From contig CAJXQR010000014.1 in assembly GCA_913058345.1 (NCBI GenBank), forward strand, positions 1-57,508: a DNA stretch of 57,508 bases, read 5' to 3'. This document shows positions 18,326 to 33,596 of the stretch, piece after piece (position 1 is the first letter of the stretch; each line of letters opens with the position of its first letter). The notes under the pieces are model-generated. The model did not search any database, was not told where the DNA came from, and saw only the letters and a program-made list of their open reading frames with translations. Position numbers and translations under genes: made by a program. This DNA is from an uncultured Gammaproteobacteria bacterium. GTDB taxonomy: Bacteria > Pseudomonadota > Gammaproteobacteria > Pseudomonadales > Porticoccaceae.

Positions 18326-19135
18326 CTAGCGCGTGCTCTCTGACGACAGATCTCGCGATTCTAAACGATCCGTAACGGCACGGCGAACTTCTTCGTCGCT
18401 ATCAGTAATCATCCCCACTAATGCCTCTACAGGTGCTCTTTCGACGGCTGTCAGACGCACCGTCCAGTCGGGGTCCTCCAGCAACAAGTCCAGGTCATTA
18501 GGGTTCAAACGGGAAGCCACCACACGGCGCACTTCTGGCTCACTGTCTGTTGCCATCAGCCCGAGACTGACCTGGGGCAAACGATGAGCGACAATTTTTC
18601 TCACTTGCCTGTCGGGGTCGCGAATCATTCTAAACAGCCGACCAGTCGGCAAACGCTGGGCCACATAAGCGCGCACCAAATAATCGGTATCGCCCGCCAA
18701 CTGCTCAAGTTCGTCTACGGCAATCCGGTCTGCAACAGTGATTCGCACTTCCCTGTCGGGATCAATCGCTAAAGCGCCCAGCTGGGCGGGTGGCAGGCGA
18801 TAGGCGACAGCCCGACGCACGACTTCATCCTTGTCGTTGATTAAAGGGCTTAGTTGCTGCAAGGGTGCGTAACGAACTGCTATCGCACGCCGCTCCCAAA
18901 ACACATCATTAAGATAACGAGCAGCTAACTCGGGATTCAACTTAAAAAAACGATCAATTTGACGTCCACTTTCAGCAACCACACAGGCTTCACCTGGACT
19001 ACAACGCCCACCCAGTAAAAGGTTGAGTCGATATTGGCAGATTCTGCAGTCAGCTACTGGCGTGTCGTTATCATCAACAACCCCGCCACTCTTCGAAGTA
19101 CCAGGCCCCGAGCCACCTCTGCCGTGAATCGACAT
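18326..19135 (-). CDS. 4Fe-4S-binding leucine-rich-repeat-variant (LRV) protein, nif-associated
   Basis: 269 residues from ATG 19135, which overlaps the DUF6129 stop by one base (TAATG). An N-terminal Cys cluster (C30, C33, C45, C51 within DCRICQY and GGRCSPGEACVV) matches the [4Fe-4S] site of the A. vinelandii LRV protein. About eight to nine repeats of roughly 24 residues follow, each with a motif like LATDPDREVRRAVADRLP, forming a right-handed superhelix. In A. vinelandii this gene also lies between nifY and nifE. It is thought to be a redox or scaffold accessory; the function is not established. Confidence 0.9.
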   Translation of the reverse strand: MSIHGRGGSGPGTSKSGGVVDDNDTPVADCRICQYRLNLLLGGRCSPGEACVVAESGRQIDRFFKLNPELAARYLNDVFWERRAIAVRYAPLQQLSPLINDKDEVVRRAVAYRLPPAQLGALAIDPDREVRITVADRIAVDELEQLAGDTDYLVRAYVAQRLPTGRLFRMIRDPDRQVRKIVAHRLPQVSLGLMATDSEPEVRRVVASRLNPNDLDLLLEDPDWTVRLTAVERAPVEALVGMITDSDEEVRRAVTDRLESRDLSSESTR

Positions 19136-19404
19136 TACCAATCTTCCACGACTTCAGCCAAAACCAAACCCGTTGCTGTATCGAGTGAGCTGGTCAGTTT
19201 TGAACAGTGTTCACTTGAATCAACGTAATAAACATTAAAGCCCTGGCATTCATTGGGTACACTCATGGCAACCATGTCGTCGTCAAATGCGTACGTCAGA
19301 TGTATACCTGGGTATTCCTTGCGCAAGGTAATAACTGTTTGTTCGCTAAGGCCAACACGTTCTACGTATAAGATAATTGATGCAAGTTGCTGCTCTGCGA
19401 TCAT
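19135..19404 (-). CDS. DUF6129-type small nif-associated protein
   Basis: 89 residues, coupled at both ends: its ATG overlaps the nifY stop (TGATG) and its stop overlaps the LRV start. An N-terminal helix is followed by LRKEYPGIHLTYAFDDDMV and GFNVYYVDSSEHCSKLTSSLDTATGLVLAEV, the pattern I associate with the small protein encoded between nifY and LRV in Azotobacter-type clusters. The family number is from memory. Function unknown. Confidence 0.75.
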   Translation of the reverse strand: MIAEQQLASIILYVERVGLSEQTVITLRKEYPGIHLTYAFDDDMVAMSVPNECQGFNVYYVDSSEHCSKLTSSLDTATGLVLAEVVEDW

Positions 19405-23851: not shown

Positions 23852-24748
<897 letters not shown>

Positions 24749-24798: not shown

Positions 24799-24815
24799 TG
24801 CAGGCGGCATGCCAA
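24799..24815 (-). promoter_or_regulatory. Sigma-54 promoter of nifHDK
   Basis: On the minus strand TTGGCATG-CCGC-CTGCA, exact GG-N10-GC spacing. The transcript would start near 24788, about 60 bases before the nifH ATG. A near-match to an IHF site (TATCCCCTTGATTT, 24828-24841) lies between it and the NifA site, as expected where DNA bending is needed, but with one mismatch. Confidence 0.78.
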
Positions 24816-24913: not shown

Positions 24914-24929
24914 TGTTATTTTATCGACA
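24914..24929. promoter_or_regulatory. NifA upstream activator site for nifH
   Basis: Exact TGT-N10-ACA (TGT TATTTTATCG ACA), about 100 bases upstream of the nifH -24 element, the classic position. Confidence 0.72.
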
Positions 24930-25084: not shown

Positions 25085-25100
25085 TGTTGCAAAAACAACA
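25085..25100. promoter_or_regulatory. NifA upstream activator site for the SIR2-like gene
   Basis: Exact TGT-N10-ACA (TGT TGCAAAAACA ACA), about 110 bases upstream of the rightward sigma-54 promoter at 25201, and 156 bases beyond the nifH site. Each divergent promoter thus has its own activator site. Confidence 0.6.
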
Positions 25101-25200
25101 ATGTCACTTAGAGAACCAAATTAATAAGATAATTTTATACGATAAACTGCAAATACAGCGGCGAATCATTAGGTTAAGTAAAATACACAAAATGTAAATG

Positions 25201-25217
25201 TTGGCGCGTATATTGCG
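25201..25217 (+). promoter_or_regulatory. Sigma-54 promoter of the SIR2-like gene
   Basis: TTGGCGCG-TATA-TTGCG with exact GG-N10-GC spacing. The transcript would start near 25228, giving an AT-rich leader of about 185 bases before the gene. Confidence 0.68.
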
Positions 25218-25413
25218 AACATCTTACCAGGACAGAGAAAAACCCTACTAGTTTTCACGCATGATTTGTCGAGAAAATAGATAACTATTTCTATTTTATA
25301 TAGCCATTTTACGACGCTTATCATCAGCAAGAAAGATTGATAATTTTATATAGCTACTTTCATCTACAGGCCATCAATACAAATCAGGTTAAATCAAAAC
25401 AATGGAGACACTC

Positions 25414-26271
25414 GTGGATAAAGATTTTATAGAAAAAATAACTGAAAGTATCAGCCGTGGTGATCTTGTTCCTTATCTCGGACCCCATTCTCTAAAAGGG
25501 GTTACGCATATAAACACAGGACACCCCATACCTGCCGATAGTGAATCGTTAATACTCGCCATGAATAAGGGCACACCAATGGCACCCCGGCTCATGTATG
25601 AATTTCCTCGCGCCGCAATGAATCTTGAATTAAAACGTGGACGAAAATTTGTCGAGGATTTTTTAACGACAACCTATGGCGGCAGTCAATGGACCCAGGG
25701 ACCGATGCATCGCTGGATAGCCTCACTTAATGCACCCTACGTTATTGACATTAATCGCGACACGCAATTGCAAGATCTTTATAGCGACCGGGAATATTTA
25801 TTAATTCTCGGCACGGCTAGAATAAGCGCTACAGACTATCGTTTTAAGTTATTCCACCATAACAAGGGTGTGTATACGGAAATTGAACAAAAACAGGCCG
25901 ATCACAGCTTGCCTGTATTGTTTAAACCTATGGGCTCGCCCGTACCACAAGCTACTTATGTCGCTGCTGATGCTGACTATGTCGATTACATTACCGAGCT
26001 TATGGGTGGCTTCGCTATACCTGATTTCCTGAAGAAATATCGCATAGGAAAAAGCTACCTGCTACTCGGCCTACCCTTAACCCGTGACACCGAGCGGATG
26101 GTTTTGAGCGATTTAATCTACGGCGCTAACGAACAAACGGGCTTTGCATTCATTAGCGAGCCGAATAAAAAAGAGCTGCGCTTTTGCGCCAATAAAAATA
26201 TTGAATTGATTAGTGAAGATTGCTTAACACTACTTTACGACAGCTCTGAGAAAGCTGCTGCCGTTGGCTAG
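25414..26271 (+). CDS. SIR2-like domain protein, nif-associated
   Basis: 285 residues from GTG 25414, which has GGAG six bases upstream; an ATG four codons earlier (25402) is the alternative but lacks a binding site. The N-terminal SRGDLVPYLGPHSL is the nucleotide-binding Gly-rich opening of SIR2/SIR2_2-like proteins, and DINRDTQLQDLY and LLLGLPLTRDTERMVL fit the later core strands. The catalytic His and the Cys-based zinc site of true sirtuins are not evident. It is divergent from nifH, 686 bases apart, with its own sigma-54 promoter and NifA site, so it should be made only during nitrogen fixation. NAD-dependent regulation of nitrogenase is an attractive but unproven idea. Confidence 0.78.
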   Translation: MDKDFIEKITESISRGDLVPYLGPHSLKGVTHINTGHPIPADSESLILAMNKGTPMAPRLMYEFPRAAMNLELKRGRKFVEDFLTTTYGGSQWTQGPMHRWIASLNAPYVIDINRDTQLQDLYSDREYLLILGTARISATDYRFKLFHHNKGVYTEIEQKQADHSLPVLFKPMGSPVPQATYVAADADYVDYITELMGGFAIPDFLKKYRIGKSYLLLGLPLTRDTERMVLSDLIYGANEQTGFAFISEPNKKELRFCANKNIELISEDCLTLLYDSSEKAAAVG

Positions 26272-26364: not shown

Positions 26365-26565
26365 ATGGCAGAATTTTATGTAACGAAAGAGTCACAAAGT
26401 GATACCGGCCATCAGGTACATCGCAAGGACTGTGGAGAGCTACCTATAATCGACAGGCTTTGGTACCTGGGTTCCTTTGCTACGGCGCAGGCCGCCACCA
26501 ACAAGGCCAATGGCATTTATAGCCCAGTCACAAAGTGTCCAAACTGTCTAAAAGACATTAGGTGA
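26365..26565 (+). CDS. Small conserved protein with His/Cys and CxxC motif
   Basis: 66 residues. GAGGATTGAG lies just before the ATG. HQVHRKDCGELP near residue 17 and TKCPNCLKDI at the end give one Cys/His pair and one CPNC knuckle, consistent with a small zinc-binding fold. It resembles short bacterial proteins that open MA(E/K)FYVTKESQ; no function is known for them. It follows the SIR2-like gene by 93 bases with no terminator seen between, so it may share the NifA-dependent transcript. Confidence 0.7.
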   Translation: MAEFYVTKESQSDTGHQVHRKDCGELPIIDRLWYLGSFATAQAATNKANGIYSPVTKCPNCLKDIR

Positions 26566-26753: not shown

Positions 26754-27026
26754 ATGCATGCATCGAACTTTATTATCCGGCTTGACGGCAATCTCAGAAT
26801 GACCGTTACTTTACTTCCCGTAGAAAACACTCAGGTGCTAGAAACTGATCTACAATCCTGGTTGCTAAATACAGAAATATTCGATGGTACATACAGAATT
26901 GCCGATACCAGTTTTACTTTACATGCCTACAGCGCTAGCGAGGCAGAGGATCTTGCCAGGAATATTCGTTCTAATCCTGTACTGATGCGCGCCATTGATG
27001 ATGAACTTGCCGGGGATATGGACTGA
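26754..27026 (+). CDS. Hypothetical protein downstream of the SIR2-like gene
   Basis: 90 residues from ATG 26754, or 75 from ATG 26799 (MTVTLLPVEN); neither has a strong ribosome-binding site. The composition is acidic and soluble, with a possible helix SASEAEDLARNIRSNPVLMRAIDDELA at the end. No family was recognised. The codon use looks coding and no longer frame overlaps it, but it might be spurious. Confidence 0.45.
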   Translation: MHASNFIIRLDGNLRMTVTLLPVENTQVLETDLQSWLLNTEIFDGTYRIADTSFTLHAYSASEAEDLARNIRSNPVLMRAIDDELAGDMD

Positions 27027-27922: not shown

Positions 27923-28189
27923 CTACATCTTTATTGAAACCAGGTGTTGGCTGTACTTGACTTCCCATTCCGCCAAAGTGAATGCGCTAACAGATAAAGC
28001 ATGGATTTCACCACTCGTTAGTTTGTCGTGCACAGTAGCCAACACTTGTTGTTGGCGATTAACTACACTTAAGCCGTCAAAGCCGTCGCTAATAACCGTC
28101 ACCTGAAAGCTACAATCTTCACCATCGAGATTAATGGCCGCATCTGGGAAGGACGATTTAATCGCCTGATGAATCTCATCACTCAACAC
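27923..28189 (-). CDS. BolA-family protein
   Basis: 88 residues, usual BolA size. The fold pattern is helix (SDEIHQAIKSSFPDAAI), strand, then SFQVTVISDGFDGLSVVNRQQQVLATVHDKLTSGEIHALSVSAFTLAEW, ending in the helix-strand element of BolA/IbaG proteins. It begins one base after the stop of a monothiol glutaredoxin gene, and BolA and monothiol Grx are well-known partners that share a [2Fe-2S] cluster. Its presence inside a nif operon is unusual. Confidence 0.82.
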   Translation of the reverse strand: MLSDEIHQAIKSSFPDAAINLDGEDCSFQVTVISDGFDGLSVVNRQQQVLATVHDKLTSGEIHALSVSAFTLAEWEVKYSQHLVSIKM

Positions 28190-28190
28190 C

Positions 28191-28526
28191 TCACACCTCC
28201 TTTAGCGATCCTGCTTGCGCATTTTTTACTAATGGGTGCAGTGTGCCATCGTCGAGCATATCGGTAATGACATCGCTACCGCCTATCAACTCGCCATTGA
28301 CAAATAACTGGGGAAACGTAGGCCAGTGAGATATAGACGGTAATTTCTCACGAATAAAGGGTGCCGCAAGGATATCGATATAACTAAAGTTAACTTCCGT
28401 TTTATTGAGAGCCTCTACCGCATCCTTAGAGAAGCCACATTTTGGCGCGTCCGGCTCACCTTTCATATATAAGAGAACAGGGTTTTCTGAAATTTGCTGA
28501 CGAATTCTTTCTTCTGTTGTGCTCAT
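28191..28526 (-). CDS. Monothiol glutaredoxin (Grx4/Grx5 type), nif-associated
   Basis: 111 residues. The active site is CGFS at Cys30, preceded by VLLYMKGEPDAPKCGFS, and WPTFPQLFVNGELIGGSDVITDMLDDG carries the glutathione-binding TFPQ and GGSD motifs. This is the class that carries [2Fe-2S] clusters with glutathione. A. vinelandii has a comparable nif-region glutaredoxin near nifQ. Together with the adjacent bolA it probably transfers or repairs Fe-S clusters for nitrogenase. Confidence 0.92.
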   Translation of the reverse strand: MSTTEERIRQQISENPVLLYMKGEPDAPKCGFSKDAVEALNKTEVNFSYIDILAAPFIREKLPSISHWPTFPQLFVNGELIGGSDVITDMLDDGTLHPLVKNAQAGSLKEV

Positions 28527-32012: not shown

Positions 32013-33596
32013 CTAGATTTTACGCATATTGATATTCATGTTTTGAATACGATAAGCAATTTGTCGAGGGGTCATACCCAGCAGGCGCGCTGCTTTCGCC
32101 TGTACCCAGCCGGCTTGCTCAAGGGCGGCCACCACGCGCTCACGCTCATCCATATCAGCATCTGCAAAATCCATAGCAGGGACATTATTTGTCGGTTGAC
32201 GTGCAGGCGGTGGAAAGTCCACATCAAGACCACTTAAATAAATTACATCGCGATCAATAATGCCGCCCTCGGCCATAACCGCTGCGCGCTCCAGACAATT
32301 TTGGAGGTCTCGAACATTACCCGGCCAACTATGGCTCATTAGCATGCGCACCGCATTATCCGTAATCGTGAGTTCACAGCCTTGCTGCTTGGCTAATTGC
32401 TCGACAATAAACTGGGTCAATTCAGGGATATCTTCAAGACGTTCGCGCAATGGAGGAATTTTAAGTGGCATCACATTGAGTCGATAATAAAGATCTTCCC
32501 TAAACTTACCCTGTTCCACCTCACCCTCAAGGTTGCGATTAGTGGCTGCCACAATACGCACGTCGACCCGAATGGTACTATTGCCTCCAACACGTTCAAA
32601 CTCACCTTCCTGTAAAACCCGTAACAACTTGGCCTGAAATAATGGCGAAATTTCACCAATTTCGTCAAGGAATAACGTACCTCCATTGGCCTGCTCAAAA
32701 CGTCCCTTCCGTTGTTTCATCGCGCCGGTAAAAGCCCCTTTTTCATGTCCGAATAATTCAGACTCCAACAATGTTTCTGGCAGTGCTGCGCAATTTAATT
32801 TAACAAAAGGACTTGTCACTCGTGGCGAGTTGTAGTGAATGGCACTGGCAATTAATTCCTTACCAGTGCCCGACTCACCACGAATAAGTACGGTGCTATC
32901 CCACTTAGCCACCCTGCGCACCTGGTCAAAAACACGGCGCATGGCGTCAGTATTACCCACCACCATATTTTCAAAACCGTATTTACCTCTCACCTCGCGG
33001 CGCAACTCATCACGCTCTTCTGCAATGTCTCGCTTTTCATTTTCGACATTATTTACCAGCGTCACGGTTTGGACGATGAGGTTAGCGATCATCTGCATAA
33101 ACCGGGTACGCTCAGGCAGTAGTTCATCGGCTGGGACATTCGGTTGCGCGGCTAATACACCAATGACGTCACTGCCACGTTTAATAGGTACGCCGATGAA
33201 GGGCAGGTTGATGTCATAAACTTCGAGTTTATCGAGAAAGCGCGGTTCAGACAAAATCTGGCCCAGCACAATGGATTCACCTATTTGTAAAATGCGCCCC
33301 ACTATACCTTCACCCTCGCGATATCGAACCGCATTTGACGACTTTCTAACGCTGTCTGAATTGACGTGGATTGCTCTGACTTTTAATTGACTATTTTCCG
33401 GATCAGACAAGGTCACGAGGCCATGTAACATGCCCGCCTCGTTATGTAAGATTTCCAATAATTCTTTTAGCATTTCCTCCATGTCGAGGGACTTTGTCAA
33501 TACGCGCGACACGCGGTAAAGAACATTGAACTGTAATTCCAGCAACTCGATATGACGATTTGTTGGGGCATCTACGAAGGGCATTGCTGGGTTCAT
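32013..33596 (-). CDS. nifA: NifA, sigma-54-dependent activator of nif genes
   Basis: 527 residues: GAF domain (about 20-185), AAA+ domain (about 210-445) with Walker A GESGTGKE, GAFTGA loop for sigma-54 contact, and Walker B GGTLFLDEIGE; then a Fis-type helix-turn-helix at the end (AKAARLLGMTPRQIAYRIQ). The linker between AAA+ and DNA-binding domain lacks the C-x4-C motif of oxygen-sensing NifA, so control is by the NifL encoded just upstream (64 bases). It should bind the TGT-N10-ACA sites listed here. Confidence 0.98.
   Translation of the reverse strand: MNPAMPFVDAPTNRHIELLELQFNVLYRVSRVLTKSLDMEEMLKELLEILHNEAGMLHGLVTLSDPENSQLKVRAIHVNSDSVRKSSNAVRYREGEGIVGRILQIGESIVLGQILSEPRFLDKLEVYDINLPFIGVPIKRGSDVIGVLAAQPNVPADELLPERTRFMQMIANLIVQTVTLVNNVENEKRDIAEERDELRREVRGKYGFENMVVGNTDAMRRVFDQVRRVAKWDSTVLIRGESGTGKELIASAIHYNSPRVTSPFVKLNCAALPETLLESELFGHEKGAFTGAMKQRKGRFEQANGGTLFLDEIGEISPLFQAKLLRVLQEGEFERVGGNSTIRVDVRIVAATNRNLEGEVEQGKFREDLYYRLNVMPLKIPPLRERLEDIPELTQFIVEQLAKQQGCELTITDNAVRMLMSHSWPGNVRDLQNCLERAAVMAEGGIIDRDVIYLSGLDVDFPPPARQPTNNVPAMDFADADMDERERVVAALEQAGWVQAKAARLLGMTPRQIAYRIQNMNINMRKI

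Follow-up and report, generated by a model that had tools for sequence, protein, structure and literature searches.

The closest described counterpart of the gene studied here is PST1325 of Pseudomonas stutzeri A1501. When this gene was disrupted by a non-polar suicide-plasmid insertion, nitrogenase activity under nitrogen-fixing conditions fell to 23% of the wild-type value (PMC2820453); in the section concerned, the result is given as one table entry with no complementation, and the gene is undiscussed there outside the table. Induction of PST1325 under N2 fixation was reported in the same paper and also elsewhere, with a factor of 9.68 in A1501 and of about 9 in an E. coli strain bearing the island (PMC6053447), and a later paper names the product a SIR2 family protein (PMC11332353). 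Like the SIR2-like gene of the window (the whole stretch of 57,508 nucleotides that was analysed here), PST1325 lies next to nifH (PST1326, by numbering) and carries a SIR2 annotation; it is a likely orthologue by synteny and annotation, not by sequence. A nif-bearing Pseudomonas encodes a protein 54% identical to that of the window.

In R. capsulatus, Rcc03262 was detected in the wild type and undetected in a nifA1-A2 deletion strain (PMC6925177). Placed next to NifT by numbering alone, it is probably a member of type II, one of the two sister types described below. ZMO1821 of Zymomonas mobilis, listed in the nif cluster (PMC8594446), is upregulated under N2 fixation and was predicted by the authors to be a deacetylase (PMC8600466). 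It shares with the window protein a SIR2-like domain and a nif cluster, the match being one of annotation and neighbourhood only, and differs from it in the function proposed. In Rhodovulum, a SIR2-like or SIR2 family protein is encoded in or beside the nif genes (PMC9412634, PMC9230146). The searched parts of PMC7860042, PMC11227200 and PMC10581106 contained nothing further on a nif SIR2 gene. Among the literature matches listed (titles and abstract starts, with subscription journals mostly outside the coverage), none dealt with the residues, structure or mechanism of nif-linked SIR2 proteins.

Classical sirtuin deacetylases (CobB type) have a zinc-binding Cys set and a catalytic His. The defence NADases DSR2 and ThsA share a conserved Asn and His in the NAD site, and DSR2 no longer cleaves NAD when N133 and H171 are mutated (PMC11087589); a double mutant has also been used as a negative control (PMC10973363).

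The SIR2-like gene, its promoter region and its neighbours

The gene is divergent from nifH, across a spacer of 674 bp, in a window that also encodes nifA and nifL. Its start was taken as the ATG at 25402, an alternative in-frame GTG lying 12 bp downstream. The genes and the promoter sites in the spacer are as follows:

25402..26271, + strand: SIR2_2-like gene, type I, nif-linked (open reading frame, 289 aa)
23852..24727, - strand: nifH, divergent neighbour, given as context (TIGR01287 over cut-off at 23894-24718)
32013..33596, - strand: nifA, predicted activator, given as context (TIGR01817, 704 bits)
25202..25216, + strand: sigma-54 -24/-12 site TGGCGCGTATATTGC for the SIR2-like gene (sequence match)
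25085..25100, unstranded: NifA-type upstream activator sequence (UAS) TGT-N10-ACA, 117 bp upstream of the sigma-54 site of the SIR2-like gene (motif)
24914..24929, unstranded: second TGT-N10-ACA, placed for nifH (motif)
24799..24814, - strand: sigma-54-like site TGGCATGCCGCCTGCA for nifHDK, 24814 reading down (10 of 12 consensus positions)

The sequence-only reading of this DNA had given the gene a sigma-54 promoter and a TGT-N10-ACA site of its own, and both were located, at 25202 and 25085. When the spacer was shuffled 2000 times by mononucleotides, a sigma-54 score of 10/12 was reached in 11 shuffles, two or more UAS were found in 44, and both occurred in one. The same elements were searched for in the 300-450 bp upstream of 80 relatives, with a threshold of at least 9/12 for the sigma-54-like site and a mononucleotide-shuffle control. 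A UAS was present upstream of 76 of the 80 relatives (mean 8.5 and maximum 17 in shuffles) and a sigma-54-like site upstream of 48 (mean 3.1 and maximum 7 in shuffles); in 44, both elements occurred and the UAS preceded the sigma-54-like site by 40-220 bp. We infer from these sites that the SIR2-like gene would be under NifA control in the window's organism.

Two small ORFs come after the SIR2-like gene, at 26365-26565 (+, 66 aa) and 26754-27026 (+, 90 aa). Neither was matched by Pfam or NCBIfam models; the product of the former shows a His/Cys pattern. An operon of the SIR2-like gene with these two ORFs was considered and was not supported by tblastn over the related loci: homologues of the first were found at four other nif SIR2 loci (L004, L005, L028 and L032) and a homologue of the second at one (L020), in all cases on the opposite strand.

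Further into the nif cluster, at 27923-28526 (-), a gene for a Grx4-type monothiol glutaredoxin (over cut-off) adjoins one for a BolA-like protein, whose match stays below the cut-off; the two might deliver Fe-S clusters to nitrogenase as a pair. On a Methylococcus plasmid, the type II gene is likewise followed by a BolA family gene. At 18326-19141 (-), downstream of nifT and nifX-like genes, the window encodes an LRV protein with an LRV_FeS cluster domain.

Predicted SIR2 fold, family structure and pocket residues

Pfam SIR2_2 (PF13289) matched the window protein with an E value of 1.5e-6 and 28.8 bits, the curated cut-off being 24.5, over residues 163-270 only. No further Pfam domain was found in this ORF, which sets it apart from DSR2 and ThsA, and the DRAT domain (PF07357) was missing too, which sets it apart from DraT. 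NCBIfam gave no match for the window protein at E up to 1. All 17 of 17 members of the family set A2 (types I and II) matched SIR2_2 at E up to 0.1, the best at 6.9e-21. The AlphaFold2 model, built with 44 aligned sequences, had a mean pLDDT of 90.9 and a pTM of 0.90. A Foldseek search with it against the PDB gave, among the 50 matches listed, entries of DSR2, AVAST5 and KomC, with a best E value of 3.9e-9, a TM score of about 0.6 and an rmsd of 4-6 Å. When PDB chains were searched by sequence, no relative was found (the best match, at E 1.5, was a galectin), and the predicted viral structure library gave nothing at E 0.001 or better. On the basis of the Pfam match and of the model, the window protein is predicted to have a SIR2 fold with the scaffold of the SIR2 pocket, in line with the SIR2 character first assigned from its nucleotide-binding opening.

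A one-genome-per-species scan yielded 395 stretches encoding a relative, of which the best 80 were used; at these best 80 of 395 loci the relatives are 54-62% identical to the window protein. Together with the window and one further relative they make up the 82 loci considered here. A survey of linkage with nifH, proposed in the sequence-only reading, was run on these loci: nifH was found in the flank at 62 of the 82, upstream and divergent in all 62, and within 1 kb in 42. At 11 of the 20 loci with no nifH in the flank, the upstream flank is shorter than 3 kb.

These relatives are of type I. Type II proteins (e.g. RHE_RS30545 of R. etli CFN 42) are likewise nif-linked and form a sister clade, with an identity to the window protein of 20-24% (8 compared). 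Their neighbour is nifT rather than nifH: a type II gene adjoins nifT in 13 of 16 loci, made up of 6 of 8 genome loci, with L142 and L143 as the exceptions, and 7 of 8 plasmid regions, with Methylococcus as the exception. The gene order is nifB-fdx-nifZ-nifT-SIR2 in five plasmid regions, the same with one extra gene in another, and nifS-nifT-SIR2-nifB in one. In a phylogenetic tree, types I and II formed one clade of 103 members against 12 canonical SIR2_2 domains with a support of 0.999; support was 0.98 for type II and only 0.743 for type I. Type I distances track those of nifH (n 55), nifD (n 52) and nifK (n 49), with Mantel r of 0.51, 0.66 and 0.66, reached by none of 1000 permutations; L037, L041, L078 and loci with less than 85% of the partner gene were left out of these tests.

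In two listings, plasmid relatives carry the annotation "SIR2 family protein" in 39 of 40 and in 36 of 40 cases among the matches listed. The gene is a member of an already annotated nif-linked SIR2_2 family and is not unique. New here is that the family consists of two types, that these have lost the catalytic dyad in complementary ways, that type I genes are consistently divergent from a flanking nifH, and that type I often occurs together with DraT.

To locate the pocket residues, A2 was compared by hhalign with a profile of 12 canonical SIR2_2 domains, which a script had picked from 32 SIR2_2 loci (L105-L136) for GxGxS-, TTNYD- and HG-like motifs and which are therefore alike in these motifs by construction. 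An earlier choice, the A1 profile against three single canonical proteins, gave an unusable alignment, and the 12-sequence profile worked instead. With the latter, the probability was 98.6 and the E value 4.9e-15, and the motifs were collinear. In the window protein they fall as follows:

25480..25494, + strand: GPHSL, residues 27-31, matching the SIR2 GxGxS loop (hhalign)
25747..25761, + strand: DINRD, residues 116-120, matching TTNYD, with Asn118 and Asp120 kept (hhalign)
25924..25938, + strand: KPMGS, residues 175-179, matching KLHGS, with Met177 replacing the catalytic His (hhalign)
25969..26010, + strand: DADYVDYITELMGG, residues 190-203, near-invariant type I block (82 sequences; variable at 193 and 198 only)

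Residues were counted in 85 type I and 18 type II members. L045 (partial), L089 (identical to L088), L096 (identical to L093), L149 (internal stop) and the weak matches L151 and L152 were left out; the L014 sequence has X from N in the record, and the motif strings of L138 and L153 are identical, perhaps from near-identical sequences, so that type II stands for 17 or 18 independent sequences. At position 29, the window protein has His, where Gly is found in 73 of the 85 type I members. Asn118, Arg119 and Asp120 are invariant in type I (85/85 each), and at position 177 we found Met in 64, Leu in 13, Thr in 4, His in 3 and Val in 1, i.e. the His is absent in 82 of 85. In type II, Trp occupies the Asn position in 18/18 and the His is present in 11/18. 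The complete Asn + His dyad is found in 3 of the 103 members and is incomplete in the other 100. By these alignments, types I and II lack complementary halves of the NAD-cleaving dyad, a feature newly described here. The dyad-keeping type I members L021, L034 and L069 (Marinobacterium) group in a single small clade (support 0.957), which would fit either a regain or a retention of the His.

Other positions are strictly conserved. Asp116 (101/103) and Pro176 (103/103) sit at the canonical Thr and Leu positions. Asp190, Arg214 and Arg232 occur in 103/103 members each, compared with 1, 3 and 2 of the 12 canonical domains, respectively. His103 is invariant (103/103) and is also His in 5 of the 12 canonical domains, which carry their own catalytic His. 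Strict conservation of the scaffold together with loss of the chemistry is what characterises a pseudoenzyme.

The window protein shares with DSR2 and ThsA the fold, the collinear motifs and the Asn of the TTN motif (here Asn118), and differs from them in the missing catalytic His, the Pro before that position, the Asp that comes first in the TTN motif and the NifA-type promoter of its gene. From classical sirtuin deacetylases it differs by Met177 and by having no zinc Cys set: it contains two Cys in all, both near the C-terminus. The absence of a catalytic His and of a zinc Cys set had been noticed from the sequence alone and is borne out. We infer from the residues at these positions that the window protein probably does not cleave NAD.

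Distribution of the gene and company of DraT and DraG

Of 398 genomes drawn evenly from the phylum, 38 passed the nifH cut-off, the window's own included. A member of the SIR2 family was found in 13 of the 37 other nifH genomes, a lower bound since the A1 profile may miss distant type II members, as compared to 2 of 80 genomes with no nifH over the cut-off (Fisher p 3.7e-6); these 80 were taken in table order, not at random, from 360, and G172 and G345, with a partial nifH and both lacking the SIR2 gene, were left out of the 37. The 13 matches comprise 4 close ones of type I and 9 distant ones of type II (E 6e-18 to 7e-25). In the other 24 of the 37 sampled nifH genomes no family member was matched, which indicates that nitrogen fixation as such can do without the gene.

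As for the two exceptions, G099, a fragmented assembly with no nifH over the cut-off, has the gene beside nifT, a ferredoxin gene and nifB. G124, which has no nifH, carries a type I gene with no nif gene within the surrounding 11.8 kb, which end at the contig end; the gene is 3.2 kb from a contig end, and a Grx4-type gene was the sole match of the genes sought. In the class of G181, the A2 profile matched 7 of 337 genomes (5 strongly, 2 weakly).

Nearer to the window, the gene was found in 2 of 58 genomes, the window's own and G052, and in none of 6 other genomes of the window's genus. NifA was over the cut-off in the window's own genome only, among 35 genomes (the window's own, 33 of the same genus or family, and G052; G009, G028 and G035 were excluded from the search), and is an imperfect proxy, as G052 has nifH beside its type I gene but no NifA over the cut-off. 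The nif island is patchy among the window's near relatives, having been either gained by transfer or lost in the relatives.

The window's assembly, which is 95.2% complete, gave no match for DraT (PF07357) or DraG (TIGR02662), and their absence, already seen within the window, holds for the assembly. For this reason the SIR2-like protein may stand in for DraT/DraG locally, in the window's genome, where both are missing. The wider proposal, that nitrogenase modification in place of DraT/DraG is the role of the family, was rejected: of 27 type I genomes tested, 17 encode DraT (PF07357), and draT lies near the gene at 14 of the 82 loci. The 17 comprise 15 of 20 named genomes (hand-picked from the best 80 of 395 and mostly isolates), 2 of 4 from the phylum sample and 0 of 3 others (the window's genome, G052 and G124). 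DraT was present in 2 of 10 type II genomes.

At the 82 loci, draT was found at 19 and draG at 15; in the 14 cases just mentioned, draT is at most 1 kb upstream, on the same strand. At L007, L010, L011, L013, L016, L047, L052, L056, L058, L063, L074, L075, L076 and L080, draG is downstream of the type I gene on the opposite strand; the fifteenth draG-bearing locus is L042. In the phylum sample, by contrast, SIR2 and DraT anticorrelate: DraT was found in 4 of 13 SIR2-bearing nifH genomes as compared to 20 of 24 SIR2-lacking ones (Fisher p 0.003), several of the latter sharing families and so not being independent.

A proposed binding-only role and its alternatives

The reading that we prefer, with a probability of about 0.55, is that the window protein is a nif-dedicated SIR2-fold pseudoenzyme that acts as a binding-only helper of nitrogenase under NifA/sigma-54 control. 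NifA and sigma-54 would turn on its gene together with nifH. The protein, in which the scaffold of the SIR2 pocket is kept, has lost the His used by NAD-cleaving SIR2 proteins; it would therefore probably leave NAD uncleaved and bind a ligand, a nif partner or both. This binding would increase the amount of active nitrogenase, most likely at the stage where the complex is assembled, matured or protected. Participation in nitrogen fixation is suggested by analogy with the likely relatives PST1325 and Rcc03262, for which published data are available. A broader and more tentative proposal is that a sirtuin-derived pseudoenzyme is an old, dedicated nitrogenase factor of Proteobacteria, which split into two types losing complementary halves of the dyad, and that the type I pocket might be a nucleotide sensor, for NAD(H), ADP-ribose or ATP, gating the maturation or activity of nitrogenase alongside DraT.

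An unlikely alternative, which several of the observations nevertheless fit, is a regulator of nitrogenase activity that responds to the NAD(H)/ADP-ribose state or recognises ADP-ribosylated NifH, and that takes part in switch-off together with DraT/DraG or in their place. The invariant N118 and D120 of the type I pocket, the placement of draT just upstream at 14 of 82 loci, the lower frequency of DraT in SIR2-bearing genomes (4/13 vs. 20/24), the lack of DraT and DraG in the window's genome and the report that A1501 switches off without DraT/DraG (PMC2820453) are all consistent with it. On the other hand, the presence of DraT in 17 of 27 type I genomes means that replacement is not a general rule, all 18 type II members carry Trp in place of the Asn, and the phenotype given for PST1325 is a low activity under nitrogen-fixing conditions, switch-off not being reported for this gene in the section concerned (PMC2820453).

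We consider it improbable that the protein is an active NAD-dependent enzyme, either a lysine deacetylase or a NADase/ADP-ribosyltransferase, using another base such as the invariant His103. The prediction of a deacetylase for ZMO1821, upregulated under N2 fixation (PMC8600466), points in this direction, the invariant Asn118, Arg119 and Asp120 would also be compatible with an active enzyme that uses unusual residues, and some members of the family may be catalytic, given the three from Marinobacterium with both Asn and His. However, 82 of the 85 type I members have no His at the catalytic position and all 18 of type II have no Asn at theirs, the window protein has no zinc Cys set, and His103 looks structural, since 5 of the 12 canonical domains share it in addition to a catalytic His of their own. 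Far less plausible still is an anti-phage effector that guards the nif island by NAD depletion, which the sequence-only reading had offered as a second possibility. The fold is that of defence SIR2 domains, and some of 17 members matched PADLOC models: a ThsA model in 8 (best 2e-6), a second ThsA model in 5, LmuA in 6 (best 4.2e-5) and a SIR2 model in 1. Against this, comparison of the window protein with the PADLOC models gave nothing at E up to 0.1, the dyad is incomplete in 100 of 103 members, the promoters are of NifA type, the neighbourhoods at the loci examined are those of nif genes, and the likely orthologue PST1325 has a nitrogenase phenotype (PMC2820453).

The gene of the binding-only helper that we favour belongs to a family present in 13 of 37 sampled nifH genomes, whose mechanism is absent from the searchable literature, and its likely orthologue PST1325 is needed for most of the nitrogenase activity of P. 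stutzeri. The two-way loss of the dyad shifts the question from which NAD reaction is catalysed to what the nif SIR2 protein binds, and the finding is relevant to the choice of genes when nif clusters are moved into new hosts.
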